From Desulfobulbus propionicus (lineage in GTDB: Bacteria > Desulfobacterota > Dissulfuribacteria > Dissulfuribacterales > DYLC01): a DNA stretch of 39,930 nucleotides. Within the stretch, counting starts at the first letter, position 1; each line of letters opens with the position of its first letter. Below, piece by piece: positions 2,201 through 34,802 of this stretch. Location: NCBI GenBank assembly GCA_020722285.1, contig DYLC01000003.1, positions 1 to 39,930 on the forward strand. The letters are read 5' to 3'. The position numbers and the translations under genes were made by a program. The notes beneath the pieces were generated by a model, which was given only the letters and a program-made list of their open reading frames with translations, searched no databases and was not told the origin of the DNA.

Positions 2201-4927
2201 TTAGGCAAGCTCATCAGCGATTACCCTTAACAACTTCTTTAACTCAATCGGTTTTGTGATGATTCTGTAACCTGTATCTTCGGCAAGTTGTACTCCTGAT
2301 CTGTCTTTTGAATAACCGCTGAGTAACACCACAGCCAGATCAGGTTTTAACTTCTTGAGCCTGTTGGCAAGCATAACGCCTGTGTCCCCTGTCATGATAA
2401 CATCGCTTAAAAGCAGTTTAATCTCTTCATTTGCCTGCTCAAACACCTTGATTGCAGCCTCTGCGCTCTTGGCAGTAAGGACGCGATAACCATTTTCTGA
2501 TAAGGTATCTTCAAGGATCTCAAGCAGTTCAGGATTGTCATCCACCACTAAAAGAGTCTCGTTTTTCCCATGCAGGCTTTGGTTATCTTCAAATTCTTGC
2601 CTGTACAGTTTGTTATCAGAAATCCTGCTCGTTTGCCGCGGCAGATATATTTCAAAGCTCGTGCCATATTCATCGCTTGTGACTTCAAGCCAGCCATCAT
2701 GGCGTTGCACTATTCCATAAACCACCGAGAGCCCAAGGCCAGTCCCCTTTCCAAGAGGCTTGGTGGTAAAAAAAGGATCAAATATCCTGCAAATCACATC
2801 CTGTGGTATTCCAGTCCCTGTGTCTGAAACAACTATCTTAACAAACTCACCTGGTCTTGCCTTTATGTTGCCAGCAACTTGTGCCTCGGATATTGTTACA
2901 TTGGAAGTGCAAAAGCTCAACTGTCCACCGTCAGGCATGGCGTCACGGGCATTAATAGCCAGATTCATGATTATCTGCTCAATACCTGTAGGATCAGCAT
3001 TGATATGCCACAGATCAGGGGCAAGGTTTGTCTGTATCTTGATGTCTGCCCCGAGTATGCGTGAAAACATCTTTAAAAGATTTTCAATGGTGTCATTGAC
3101 ATTCAGATCAATATAGGTTCCAGTCTCTTTTTTTGAAAAAATCAGCAGTTGCTTTACAAGAGAGGCCGCATGGGCTACAGCGCTTTCAAGTTTGTTCAAA
3201 TTTTTGGTAATATCGACGCCTTTGGCGAGTTTCATATTGCAGAGCTCAATATTGCCCTGAATGACCATCAGAATATTATTGAAATCATGGGCCACGCCGC
3301 CAGCAAGTGTGCCTATGGCCTGCATCTTCTGGGACTGAACAAGCTGCAAGTGAAGCCTTTCACGCTCCGCCTCTGCTGTGCGCTGCTCTGTAATATCCCT
3401 GAATATCCCGATGCTGCCGAAAAATGTATCATTCTGCATGAACCCGGTTACATTTCCCTCAAGCCAGACTGTCTCCATATTTTTTGTGACAAATCTTGTA
3501 GTAACAACGCCTGGATTTACGCCCGCGAGCAATTGCTTAAATAAAGGCATGCAGTGCCCCTTTTCTTCAGGATGCAACACATCCAGAAAGGTAAGCGATG
3601 CTGCTTCATCCAGAGAGTAACCCATCACAGAACACCACCGGTTGTTGACAAAGATAAAATGACCGCTTGCGTCCACGCTCTGGATTAGATCGTTTGCCTT
3701 GTCAAGCAATAACTTGTACTGAACATTTCGTTGCTGAAGCTGGACTTCAGCTTCTTTACGGCGTGCTACCTCAGCTTCAAGGCTGGAGTTGACTGTTGCA
3801 AGTTCAGCCGTCTGGTCTCTAATAACATCAGTTAAAGCCGCAGCAAGATATTTAATGGAATAGTATGTCATACACTCAACAATGATAAAGGCAAGACAGC
3901 CCAAGAGTATGGTTACAGCCAGGATGTCATGATAAGCGTCCATTCGGCCTGTAACATCCTGCTTCACTACAACGCTCCCCGACGTACTGTTTTCCTGCAA
4001 GGCTGACGCAATGCCACTAATCGGAAAAACAGAGAGGCTGTAATAAAAATTTCCCACTTTTTTGATTAGAGGCTGTGGGCTGGCAGCCCTGACAAAATCC
4101 TGCGAGATGACATCCCTCCAATTTTGTTCTGTAGAGCTCTCCACCACATACTCGCCTATAATTTCATTGTCATGCCTGGCTGTTACAGACTTGAATGCAA
4201 CCTCATCCAGCATCTGTCTTGAGAGCAACAAGGTAAGGTCAATGCCTGCTGTCTCCTTACAGGAGTTAAGGATGCTGTCTAACGGAACACCTATCTCAAC
4301 CGTGCCAGCCAGGATGGACTCCTCGTCATTCGGCACAACAAACACAGGCTGGACAGCCCTAAGACTACATGAAACCTTCCCACACTCAAATCCTGTGATT
4401 GCGCTGGCTGTCTCGTATGTCTTTTGAATGGTGTGTCTCTTAGTAAGGAGATCGCCATGTCTTTTGTCATGCATTCTCAAGAAAGAAACTATCTCATCAC
4501 CTCTTTTTTGATGAAACTGTAACTGATTAACCTTTATATCTTTCTGGATATTCTGCCAATATGAAAGCATATAGGCCATCAGCCTGCTCCTTAACACATC
4601 CAGCATTTCGTCTCTTTCCTGTCCTGACTTTTCGACCATTGTCTGAGTTGCAAGCCCAAGTATCTCCTTGACAGTATTGTCATTTGAAAGGGAAGAGGTG
4701 GTAAGCAGAAGAGCCTTTTCAGAGGATGCGACACTTGAAAGAAAGATCTGTCTGAACCGCATAGCGTCTTCAGCAAGGTCAGCCTCAATATTCGCCCTGA
4801 ATTTCTGATTAAAAAACAACAGCGCCCCCAAAAAAGCAACGGCAATAACCACAGAAACCGTCAGAAACAGCCTTTGGATGCCCTGTTGGCAAGACATTTT
4901 TATCAGGGATTTCAAATTATATTTCAC
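2201..4927 (-). CDS. PAS-domain hybrid sensor histidine kinase with C-terminal receiver domain
   Basis: N-terminal TM and periplasmic region, PAS, HisKA (GGVAHDFNNIL), HATPase (DTGTGIPQD, GTGLGLSVVYG), receiver (LLVVDDNPELL, LLSDVIMTG). Confidence 0.9.
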   Translation of the reverse strand: MKYNLKSLIKMSCQQGIQRLFLTVSVVIAVAFLGALLFFNQKFRANIEADLAEDAMRFRQIFLSSVASSEKALLLTTSSLSNDNTVKEILGLATQTMVEKSGQERDEMLDVLRSRLMAYMLSYWQNIQKDIKVNQLQFHQKRGDEIVSFLRMHDKRHGDLLTKRHTIQKTYETASAITGFECGKVSCSLRAVQPVFVVPNDEESILAGTVEIGVPLDSILNSCKETAGIDLTLLLSRQMLDEVAFKSVTARHDNEIIGEYVVESSTEQNWRDVISQDFVRAASPQPLIKKVGNFYYSLSVFPISGIASALQENSTSGSVVVKQDVTGRMDAYHDILAVTILLGCLAFIIVECMTYYSIKYLAAALTDVIRDQTAELATVNSSLEAEVARRKEAEVQLQQRNVQYKLLLDKANDLIQSVDASGHFIFVNNRWCSVMGYSLDEAASLTFLDVLHPEEKGHCMPLFKQLLAGVNPGVVTTRFVTKNMETVWLEGNVTGFMQNDTFFGSIGIFRDITEQRTAEAERERLHLQLVQSQKMQAIGTLAGGVAHDFNNILMVIQGNIELCNMKLAKGVDITKNLNKLESAVAHAASLVKQLLIFSKKETGTYIDLNVNDTIENLLKMFSRILGADIKIQTNLAPDLWHINADPTGIEQIIMNLAINARDAMPDGGQLSFCTSNVTISEAQVAGNIKARPGEFVKIVVSDTGTGIPQDVICRIFDPFFTTKPLGKGTGLGLSVVYGIVQRHDGWLEVTSDEYGTSFEIYLPRQTSRISDNKLYRQEFEDNQSLHGKNETLLVVDDNPELLEILEDTLSENGYRVLTAKSAEAAIKVFEQANEEIKLLLSDVIMTGDTGVMLANRLKKLKPDLAVVLLSGYSKDRSGVQLAEDTGYRIITKPIELKKLLRVIADELA

Positions 4928-6809
4928 AGTATTTTTTTAATCCTTCTATTTGATGATCAGGTATGTTGAAAGAAAAAACAGTCCCACGACCGGGGGAAGA
5001 CTCCACCCATATCTGTCCTCCGTGTCTTTCAACTATCTTTTTGCAGATAGCAAGCCCGATGCCGGTGCCGGCATATTTTTCACGTCCATGCAGCCTCTGA
5101 AACACAACAAAAATGCGTTCAAAATACTTTGCTTCAATACCTATTCCATTATCACGTATAGAAAAAACCCATCCGAGCTGAGCATCTTTTCTGCATGAGA
5201 TATGTATTTCCGGTATGTTTTCTCCCCTGAACTTTATGGCGTTTCCGATTAAATTCTGAAAAAGCTGCCCAAGCTGGATATGATCCGCCATCAACACAGG
5301 CAATTCATCCCTTGTAATAACAGAGCTTGTCTCAGTTGTAATGGCCTTCAGATTGCTGAGCACTATATCAACCACAGCACCGCAGTCCACAGGATTTAAA
5401 GGCTTGGCCCTTGTTGTCACCCTGGAATACGCCAGAAGCGATTGAATCAGGTTGTGCATGCGCTGAGCTGCCTGCACAGAATATGTAATAAACTCATTGG
5501 CCTTGTGATCAAGCTGATCGCCGTAGCGTTTATCCAAGAGTCGAAGATAGCCAGCTATTGTGCGAAGAGGCTCCTGAAGGTCGTGAGAGACAACGTAAGC
5601 AAACTGCTCCAGCTCTTGATTGGATGAACTGAGGGCGCAGGCAGTCTTGCGCAGATCCTTCTCAGCAGCAGCCTTTGCCTTTTCGGTTTCAACATAGTGG
5701 ACAGAGATCTGATTCAGTTCGCCTGCCAGATGTTTTAGCTCGATTGGCCAGCTCCAGGTCAGATCAAACGGGATTTTGTCTGTCAGAAGCCTTGAAAAGG
5801 CAGATGTCAAGGTGTTCCTGATATTATCCGTATAAATAGCGATATATCTTGCAAACAAAGCAAGTGCAATCAGTATCACTAGTACAGAGATCAGGATTCT
5901 TATCCTAAATGTCGTCTGCCATTGTTCCATGCCAGCCTCATTCAGTTGATGACCTATGAAAAGGTTATGCTCAACAGGCACGTCTGACAGCAACATAAAC
6001 CATACCACGCGCCTTCCAGTCCTGTTATCCTTTAAAATAAGTGGAAGGCTGTCTGGAGCCATTTTTTTTAGCTCAGGGAAATCACTGAATAAATTATGTC
6101 CTGTTGCAGAATGCCCTGCGGCCATTCCATTTCTGAAGAGATAATGGCCATCTCCCCTGGCAAAGTAATTTTCAGAAAAGCTTGGAAGCAATTTTGTGAT
6201 CTCAACGACAATATAGAGATAGCCCTGTGGTATATCATCGGCGTCCTTGATTTCCCCTGAAAATGCAATAAATTCCTGTTCCGCCTTATTTATTGCATCA
6301 CTTCCAGTCTCATTAACATGTGGGGCAAGACAGGTGGTCACAGCATCACTGTGTTCCTTTAAATCGCTGCATACAATTACGGGGTAATCAGAAGATTCCA
6401 CGGCCGTCAGCATGGAATCAGCTCCAGTACGCTCAAAGTTTTGAACCACCCGGCCTTCCATATCAAGCACACTGATCCCCCTCACATCCTGATCATTGCC
6501 AAACACCTTGTTGATCATCGCCTGAAACTGTTCCTGCGCTGCATCCATAGACATATCAAACGGATGAAGATCAGGAGCGGAAAGCCTCACAGCACCATGA
6601 GTCATACATAAAATGCGTACAGTTTCCTTGCGTTTTTCGATCAGACGACGCAGTTCATCCGCAGTCTTTTCTATCTCGACTCTTACCTCAAGCTTGACAG
6701 ATTCCTCAAGCCTTTGCAACACATCCGGCAGGTTTATAGACATATTTGCCAGCAGAGGCATTACGCTGCAAAGAAAGCATATCAGGAAAACGAGGTTACG
6801 GAGGCGCAT
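4917..6809 (-). CDS. Sensor histidine kinase (phytochrome-like HisKA/HATPase)
   Basis: VSHDLQEPLRTIAGYL, NLIGNAIKFRG, GTGIGLAICKKIVERHGG; its 3' end overlaps the start of the downstream kinase. Confidence 0.9.
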   Translation of the reverse strand: MRLRNLVFLICFLCSVMPLLANMSINLPDVLQRLEESVKLEVRVEIEKTADELRRLIEKRKETVRILCMTHGAVRLSAPDLHPFDMSMDAAQEQFQAMINKVFGNDQDVRGISVLDMEGRVVQNFERTGADSMLTAVESSDYPVIVCSDLKEHSDAVTTCLAPHVNETGSDAINKAEQEFIAFSGEIKDADDIPQGYLYIVVEITKLLPSFSENYFARGDGHYLFRNGMAAGHSATGHNLFSDFPELKKMAPDSLPLILKDNRTGRRVVWFMLLSDVPVEHNLFIGHQLNEAGMEQWQTTFRIRILISVLVILIALALFARYIAIYTDNIRNTLTSAFSRLLTDKIPFDLTWSWPIELKHLAGELNQISVHYVETEKAKAAAEKDLRKTACALSSSNQELEQFAYVVSHDLQEPLRTIAGYLRLLDKRYGDQLDHKANEFITYSVQAAQRMHNLIQSLLAYSRVTTRAKPLNPVDCGAVVDIVLSNLKAITTETSSVITRDELPVLMADHIQLGQLFQNLIGNAIKFRGENIPEIHISCRKDAQLGWVFSIRDNGIGIEAKYFERIFVVFQRLHGREKYAGTGIGLAICKKIVERHGGQIWVESSPGRGTVFSFNIPDHQIEGLKKYCEI

Positions 6810-6826
6810 GAATATAAAAAATGTTG

Positions 6827-6979
6827 GTAACTATCCAGCAGCACTCCATCTGCTGCGTCATCGGCCTGCTCATGTGCAGGTAGCACACTTCGCAGGCCTC
6901 TTCCTTGCATCTGGGGCACTGCTGAATAGTTACAGTACGGTGGTTTTCGTTTGTTTTCGGCATTAAGCTGGATAGTTAC
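6827..6979 (+). mobile_element. 153-bp TIR element (MITE-like), copy A, complete
   Basis: GTAACTATCCAGC...GCTGGATAGTTAC; flanked by exact 8-bp direct repeats AAATGTTG (6819-6826 and 6980-6987). Confidence 0.85.
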
Positions 6980-6987
6980 AAATGTTG

Positions 6988-8391
6988 TTACTTTTTCATC
7001 TGTCCCTGGCCTGTTGACTCAAGGACGCTCATCCAGAATCTGCCGTTGATATTGACCTGCTTCCGGCTCATTATGGCTGATTTTATAGGGATATTCACAT
7101 AGTGGTCATTCCACAGACTTACGAGCATTGCGGTTTTGCCTGCCATGGCTGCATGAACCGCATTCTGACCGAGATTGGCGCAGTAAAGTCTGTCCTCTGT
7201 GTTGGCCGGGACACTGCGTACGATGTAACTGGGGTCGATGTAACGGATAAAAATCTCCTGGGAAATGGATTTGAAGTGCTCTTTTATCTTCTCCCGCAAA
7301 AAGATCCCTATATCTCCAAGCTTGATATTGCCTGAAATATCCCTTTCCACCTTTTCGCCTGAGACATACTTCTGCCCGGCGCCCTCAGCTACCACAATCA
7401 CAGCATGTCCCCGAGCCTTCACCCTTGCCTCAAGCGCCTTCAAAAACCCCTTGTCTCCGTCAAGATCAAAATCACTTTCCGGTATCAGACAAAAATTGAC
7501 CTCTCGCAAGGCATGTGTCGCTGTTGCTGCGATAAAGCCTGAGTGCCTCCCCATAACCTTAACTATGCCGACGCAGTTGGGTGCGCCAACAGCCTCCACA
7601 TGGGCGCACCTGATGGACTCACAGGCCATATCCACTGCGGTGTCAAACCCGAAGGTGCGTGAAATAAGAAAGATATCATTGTCTATGGTCTTGGGAATCG
7701 CAATTACGCTCAACTTGAGGCCTCTTTTATCAATCTCCCTGCATATCTCCATAGTCGCCCTGAAGGTGCCATCGCCACCAATCATGAATAGTATATTTAC
7801 ATTGAGCCTGACGAGTGTATCCACAATCTCGTCAACAGGCTGATTCCCACGGGAAGACCCCAGAATTGTCCCCCCGTATTCATGGATATTGGCTACCTTC
7901 TGAGGGGATAATTCTACAACAGGCAACTTGTAGGATGGTATAAAACCACGAAGGCCATAACGAATGCCTATGATTGATGTGATGCCGTAGCCATAATGCA
8001 GTGTAAGCACAAGGGAACGGATTACATCATTAATTCCAGGACAAAGACCTCCGCAGGTTACAACAGCACATCGGGTCTTGGTAGGATCAAAATATATCCG
8101 GCTTCTCGGCCCGGCAAGCTCAAAGGACAATGGCAGCTTTCCGGAATCAAGCCCAGCCTTGATTGCATTAAAAGAAGAATGGGCAAGTATCCTGTCCGAG
8201 TCCGAGACAAAACATTTATATGGTTTTTCCAGTAGAGGAGAATCAATCCGCGGCGATCCAAGAGACTGAATCTCTGTACAGATGTCATCATCAGGACCAA
8301 GATCATCTATCATGTCCATAGTTGAACAGTTATCACCATGACGGCTATTATCGGAGATCATTTGTTTGCACCTTTCTAATGGAAGTCCCAA
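6988..8391 (-). CDS. 6-phosphofructokinase family protein
   Basis: TCGGLCPGINDVIRS, GGDGTFRAT, PKTIDNDI, GRHSGFIAA motifs. Confidence 0.9.
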   Translation of the reverse strand: MGLPLERCKQMISDNSRHGDNCSTMDMIDDLGPDDDICTEIQSLGSPRIDSPLLEKPYKCFVSDSDRILAHSSFNAIKAGLDSGKLPLSFELAGPRSRIYFDPTKTRCAVVTCGGLCPGINDVIRSLVLTLHYGYGITSIIGIRYGLRGFIPSYKLPVVELSPQKVANIHEYGGTILGSSRGNQPVDEIVDTLVRLNVNILFMIGGDGTFRATMEICREIDKRGLKLSVIAIPKTIDNDIFLISRTFGFDTAVDMACESIRCAHVEAVGAPNCVGIVKVMGRHSGFIAATATHALREVNFCLIPESDFDLDGDKGFLKALEARVKARGHAVIVVAEGAGQKYVSGEKVERDISGNIKLGDIGIFLREKIKEHFKSISQEIFIRYIDPSYIVRSVPANTEDRLYCANLGQNAVHAAMAGKTAMLVSLWNDHYVNIPIKSAIMSRKQVNINGRFWMSVLESTGQGQMKK

Positions 8392-12041: not shown

Positions 12042-12194
12042 GTAACTATCAAGCAGCGCCCTGTCTGCTGCATCATAGGTCTGCTCATGTGCAGGCAGCA
12101 CACTTCGCAGGCCTCTTCCTTGCATCCGGGGTACTGCTGAACAGTTACAGTACGGTGGTTTTCGTTCGTTTTCGGCATTATACTGAATAGTTAC
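12042..12194 (+). mobile_element. 153-bp TIR element, copy B, complete
   Basis: Same length and architecture as copy A; exact 8-bp direct repeats AAAAATTG (12034-12041 and 12195-12202). Confidence 0.85.
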
Positions 12195-14587: not shown

Positions 14588-14590
14588 AAT

Positions 14591-14712
14591 GAAAACCACC
14601 GTACTGTAACTATTCAGCAGTGCCCCAGATGCAAGGAAGAGGCCTGCGAAGTGTGCTGCCTGCACATAAGCAGGCCGATGACACAGCAGATGGGGCGCTG
14701 CTGGATAGTTAC
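14591..14712 (-). mobile_element. 153-bp TIR element, copy C, truncated (lacks outer right end)
   Basis: Inverted orientation; 122 bp from GAAAACCACCGTACTGTAAC to GCTGGATAGTTAC; abuts the glyQ terminator. Confidence 0.8.
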
Positions 14713-34753: not shown

Positions 34754-34802
34754 TACAGTACAGTGGTTTTCGTTCGTTTTTGGCATTAGACTGGATAGTT
34801 AC
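34754..34802 (+). mobile_element. 153-bp TIR element, copy D, right-end fragment
   Basis: TACAGTACAGTGGTTTTCGTTCGTTTTTGGCATTAGACTGGATAGTTAC matches the right portion of copies A and B. Confidence 0.75.

Follow-up and report, generated by a model that had tools for sequence, protein, structure and literature searches.

What lies in the space between the phosphofructokinase gene (pfk) and the histidine kinase gene, how did it arrive there, and what does it do to the two genes? In the window, i.e., the whole stretch of 39,930 nucleotides that was analysed, direct reading of positions 6819-6987 gives AAATGTTG, then GTAACTATCCAGC ... GCTGGATAGTTAC, then AAATGTTG again. This bears out the initial annotation, which had claimed a 153-bp inverted-repeat element with a perfect 8-bp duplication: the ends are inverted over 13 bp, and AAATGTTG stands on either side. 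A third copy of the end, absent from that annotation, lies inverted inside the element, so that three ends (A, B, and C) can be distinguished (Table 1). The element is shorter than 300 bp and gene-less, as is characteristic of miniature transposons (MITEs); the open frames tried gave no match above cut-off in Pfam. The possibility that a small open frame with CxxC motifs spanning the hairpin (VTIQQCPRCKEEACEVC...) encodes a protein was rejected, because its conservation tracks base pairing and it has no Pfam hit.

Table 1. Coordinates of the element, its parts, its copies in the window, and the flanking genes
Feature	Position	Strand	Basis and remarks
Left 8-bp target-site duplication, AAATGTTG	6819..6826	none	sequence reading
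Full 153-bp element, oriented by ends A to C	6827..6979	+	sequence reading and copy comparison
End A (13 bp), GTAACTATCCAGC	6827..6839	+	end-motif search
Hairpin unit of 107 nt, A to B	6827..6933	-	folding and compensatory changes conserved in relatives
Inner end B, GTAACTATTCAGC	6921..6933	-	end-motif search; with the next base, 14 bp shared exactly with either terminus of the L318 IS66 element
Linker B-C (33 bp)	6934..6966	-	by eye like the linker of family f2 elements
Outer end C, GTAACTATCCAGC	6967..6979	-	end-motif search
Right 8-bp target-site duplication, AAATGTTG	6980..6987	none	sequence reading
Second full-length copy, 90% identical, duplication AAAAATTG	12042..12194	+	copy search of the window
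Copy with A, hairpin, and B; C side truncated	14588..14712	-	copy search of the window
Right-end fragment of a copy (linker and C)	34754..34802	+	copy search of the window
Copy interrupted by the contig end	39848..39930	-	copy search of the window
Histidine kinase gene (HisKA, HATPase_c), adjoining the insertion	4917..6809	-	domain search
Phosphofructokinase gene (pfk), stop codon abutting the right duplication	6988..8391	-	domain search and sequence reading

The insertion is not a solitary one. The 13-mer end (with two mismatches or fewer) occurs 13 times in the window, compared with 1.19 expected, a number reached in none of 100 shuffles, and the window contains four more copies or fragments, on which the initial annotation was silent. 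That annotation had proposed that the element be sought elsewhere in the host genome; the draft (1.69 Mb in 100 contigs, approx. 90% complete, 0.08% contamination) holds roughly 120-147 copies (147 candidates at first look). It has 248 near-exact ends (one mismatch or fewer) vs. none for a reversed control pattern, and several of its contig ends fall inside a copy. A detailed set, drawn from 622 kb of host sequence partly selected for containing copies, comprises 72 non-overlapping matches, 38 of which are full-length. Copies lacking consistent 8-bp duplications had been named in advance as an argument against the element; instead, such duplications are perfect at 20 of the 38 full-length copies and have one mismatch at 4 more, while randomly re-paired flanks, which served as a control, matched in 0 of 20,000 cases. 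Terminal inverted repeats and target duplications, a further mark of MITEs, are therefore present at many copies. One copy (G000:C31:18176-18328) is identical at 153/153 positions and has its own duplication, AAACAAAA; as an identical copy at a different target, it indicates recent movement. With the element removed, 31 of the 38 sites fall in none of the ORFs of 90 aa or more, although these ORFs cover 82% of the sequence (P approx. 1e-17).

What moves is the 153-bp stretch from A to C; its insertion duplicates 8 bp of the target, and more than 100 copies of it exist, mostly intergenic. A simple A-B mobile unit was also considered and rejected as a general rule: among the elements of family f2, one copy (L143) has a 7-of-8 duplication around its 109-bp A-B unit. 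Because of this copy, occasional transposition via B is conceivable, although it would not be the rule. Searches of plasmid and phage collections matched neither the window element nor its relatives. It should be noted that the host draft also contains another intergenic repeat of high copy number, which appears palindromic and has the motifs GGGAGGTTCCAAAAATT / GGGAAGTTCCAGAAATT (e.g., L118:12722, L216:17344, and L224:11088), and that some MITE copies lie inside or beside it, e.g., at L113:16883 and on contig C31 (in L122).

Which transposase could have moved these copies? The inference of a non-autonomous IS66-like MITE, made in the initial annotation, is supported by a complete 1757-bp insertion sequence (IS) in a relative from the same phylum (genome G251, L318:1320-3076), which carries GTAACTATTCAGCA at both ends and is flanked by the duplication AAAACGCC. 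Its 471-aa transposase belongs to IS66 (NF033517, 295 bits vs. a cut-off of 180; PF03050) and is encoded by a single transposase ORF without accessory ORFs, as in the ISBst12 group; the other ORFs listed at this locus are two shorter opposite-strand frames and a neighbouring gene that overlaps the end. The likeness between L318 and the MITE is confined to the terminal 14 bp, which are identical, so the MITE shares its ends with an autonomous element, albeit one from a different phylum genome. Across 1.19 Mb of further non-host sequence, L318 itself and the MITEs L300 and L304 are the sole places where the 14-mer GTAACTATTCAGCA occurs, and the genome of L300 contains an IS66 remnant (L323) that is 64% identical to the L318 transposase. 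A second end type of the MITE superfamily also points to IS66, but to a different subgroup: the IS66 elements of f2 genomes end in GTAACCGTTCACTCC, which equals the C end of the f2 MITEs over 12 bp. Like IS66 elements, the MITE has ends that start with GTAA (GTAACTATYCAGC) and an 8-bp duplication; in relatives, IS66 ends mostly start with GTAA, and that of L184 starts with GTATCC. ISDge4, an IS66 element of the ISBst12 group that has been seen to transpose, has the ends GTGACTACTCAGCA / GTAACTGCTCAGCA and makes an 8-bp duplication (PMC12898284). Because two end types match IS66-family ISs, the 153-bp element is very probably a non-autonomous IS66-type MITE.

An autonomous partner in the same genome, which is usual but not obligatory for a MITE, was not found. 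The host draft (approx. 90% complete) contains no IS66 transposase detectable with PF03050 or NF033517, and tblastn of the L318 transposase against the 622 kb of host sequence returned nothing significant. The missing IS66 gene speaks for mobilization by an unrelated DDE family that likewise makes 8-bp duplications; nevertheless, the ends agree exactly with those of an IS66 element over 14 bp, and the second end type agrees over 12 bp, which renders such an origin very unlikely. Even less credible is a RAYT (IS200/IS605-type) transposase spreading a REP/BIME-like palindrome, a scenario that would fit an intergenic, hairpin-forming, high-copy repeat and the hairpins without transposon ends in some relatives. 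However, IS200/IS605-type elements move without target duplication, whereas the present copies have consistent 8-bp duplications, and the inverted ends are common to the element and IS66. For the IS66-type MITE, it is reasonable to assume that a single-ORF transposase of the IS66 family (ISBst12-like) that recognises GTAACTATYCAGC ends acted in trans by cutting or copying. Its gene, missing from the draft, may have been lost or may reside in the absent tenth of the genome or in a collapsed short contig.

Further IS66-related sequences were observed in relatives. L184:987-3280 is a divergent IS66-related IS with a 555-aa transposase (weak NF033517 match), the ends GTATCCTATTCAAA, and the duplication GAATAATT; its assembly has an N gap just within one end, after which that end is repeated. 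L325:1311-3226 is an IS66-related IS with the ends GTAACTTCTCAAAAAGTC and the duplication TCAAAAGA. In the f2 genome G032, seven places (L190, L193, L198, L202, L204, L205, and L207) contain no more of an IS66 transposase than its last 26 codons, together with its end; since five of the seven remnants are at contig starts, a collapsed multi-copy IS is likely.

The element has relatives far beyond its host. The hairpin unit of a relative has matches in 32 of the 49 class genomes, which represent 13 of 22 genera, vs. 12 of the 49 with PF03050 hits; thus, the presence of the transposase does not track that of the MITE, a point against the IS66 reading. A covariance model of the hairpin has matches in 54 of 396 phylum genomes (43 genera); the genomes searched were all from outside the host's own genus, and G001, the sole member of the host family among them, gave no hairpin match. 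Three other families repeat the A-B-C plan and its 8-bp duplications around the A-C unit, with lengths of mostly 158-159 bp in f2, mostly 165-190 bp in f9, and 157-159 bp in f5; read directly from the sequences, so do further families of the phylum, namely, L304 (AAAAAACA), L294 (AAGCCCGG), and L289 (GTAATTTT). The end sequence varies by lineage: the host shares GTAACTATYCAGC with L300 and L304, which belong to other families, f2 has GTAAGCGTTCAC (outer end GTAACCGTTCAC), and f9 has GTATCTGCTCA (outer ends GTAACTGCTCA). The three ends within one element nonetheless resemble each other, which is expected if all must suit one transposase. Judging from these sequences, the superfamily spans the phylum, and its members combine a covarying hairpin with duplication of the inner end. 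In other phylum genera, hairpins recognised by the MITE core model (CATCTGCTGCGTTG ... GCCTTGCATCTGC) occur within unrelated flanks without transposon ends (L296, L297, L303, L307, and L313).

Ends A and B close the 107-nt hairpin on the minus strand, and the outer C closes the element. The inner end may have arisen by end duplication and would now pair with A to give this stable structure. The 153-nt RNA folds with -66 kcal/mol (z = -8.1). In an order-wide alignment of 20 units, with the ends left out, both partners have changed in 15 of the 28 inner stem pairs, and pairing holds in 95.7% of cells; none of 500 shuffles equalled this, a figure that is not a probability because the aligned copies are related, and slid controls drop to 27-48%. 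Such pairing could be explained by selection on an RNA or else by palindrome repair. The hairpin might be a functional RNA under selection (or a DNA hairpin bound by protein), a real cargo that spreads by borrowing IS66 ends, the three ends serving as interchangeable modules. The paired changes, the several internal positions that stay unpaired throughout the consensus structure, and the occurrence of the hairpin in the 54 genomes, in some of them with flanks that lack a transposon end (L296, L297, L303, and L313), are consistent with this possibility. However, no Rfam covariance model matches (E up to 5 for the window and up to 1 for the relatives), template switching can keep palindromes paired without selection, and the kinship of the copies inflates the shuffle statistics, so a functional RNA is regarded as possible rather than probable. 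Slightly more speculative still is the broader proposal of a phylum-wide family of mobile RNA hairpins under selection, which would ride on IS66 transposases by means of three end copies, change ends in concert on adopting a new IS66 subgroup, and act as portable intergenic mRNA regulators at 100 or more sites per genome.

What, then, does the insertion do between pfk and the kinase gene? The initial annotation suggested that the kinase promoter may be provided or disrupted by the element. The element does fill the space between the two genes and ends 17 bp from the kinase start, where the base of the hairpin lies; however, no promoter-like (sigma-70-like) site was found in or at the element, and both flanking genes, which are encoded on the minus strand, are intact. 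Furthermore, once the insert and one duplication are subtracted, just 17 nt remain between the stop codon of pfk and the start codon of the kinase gene. Given so short a gap between co-directional genes, the insertion most likely took place within a transcription unit rather than in a promoter region; pfk and the kinase gene were probably one transcription unit before the insertion, and a promoter effect is improbable. Among the relatives sampled, no close kinase homologue lies beside pfk, i.e., this adjacency is not conserved among them; as the locus is unusable for empty-site comparison, the argument for insertion rests on the duplications. No terminator-like site was found in the element. 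Because many copies are situated between co-directional genes, the hairpin is probably transcribed by read-through. Within the pfk-kinase unit, it would most likely uncouple the two genes, lowering kinase expression at translation and/or shielding the 3' end of the upstream pfk mRNA. Taken together, the most likely reading is that of a transposase-dependent MITE whose read-through-transcribed hairpin is tolerated or may be used as an mRNA stability or attenuation element.

Comparison with known systems helps to place the element. It resembles the ISBst12 group of the IS66 family (e.g., ISDge4, and also L318) in its GTAACT..TCAGCA-type ends and 8-bp duplication; however, the autonomous members have a single transposase ORF, whereas the gene-less element measures 153 bp and has, in addition, an internal end and a conserved hairpin. 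ERIC and Correia elements are imperfect palindromes of 100-200 bp, intergenic and transcribed by read-through, and are thus similar in size, location, and high copy number, but their ends are different, and they have TA target duplications instead of 8 bp. The high copy numbers of ERIC and Correia elements have been documented (PMC10969869), as has the Chunjie MITE of Geobacter uraniireducens (235 bp, 38 full and 57 partial copies; PMC10969869), which, by description rather than by sequence, is also a bacterial, intergenic element that has inserted into an operon. MITECca01 of Cardinium (240 bp, 169 copies, IS982-derived; PMC9769881) is likewise a single MITE with well over 100 mostly intergenic copies; however, its IS982 parent is still in its genome and it is confined to one strain, whereas the present superfamily spans a phylum. 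A partial search of the open literature found no description of this element or superfamily.

The insertion is therefore larger in scope than the initial annotation had it, being one of well over 100 copies in a phylum-wide superfamily, i.e., a widespread, apparently undescribed intergenic hairpin repeat tied to IS66-type transposition. For genome annotation, the element accounts for contig breaks and many repeats in these genomes. The superfamily also constitutes a natural experiment, in which one hairpin is combined with differing end sequences, two of which match the ends of IS66 subgroups. Comparison of old with young copies, together with expression data, makes it testable if selection on an RNA or mere palindrome repair maintains the hairpin.
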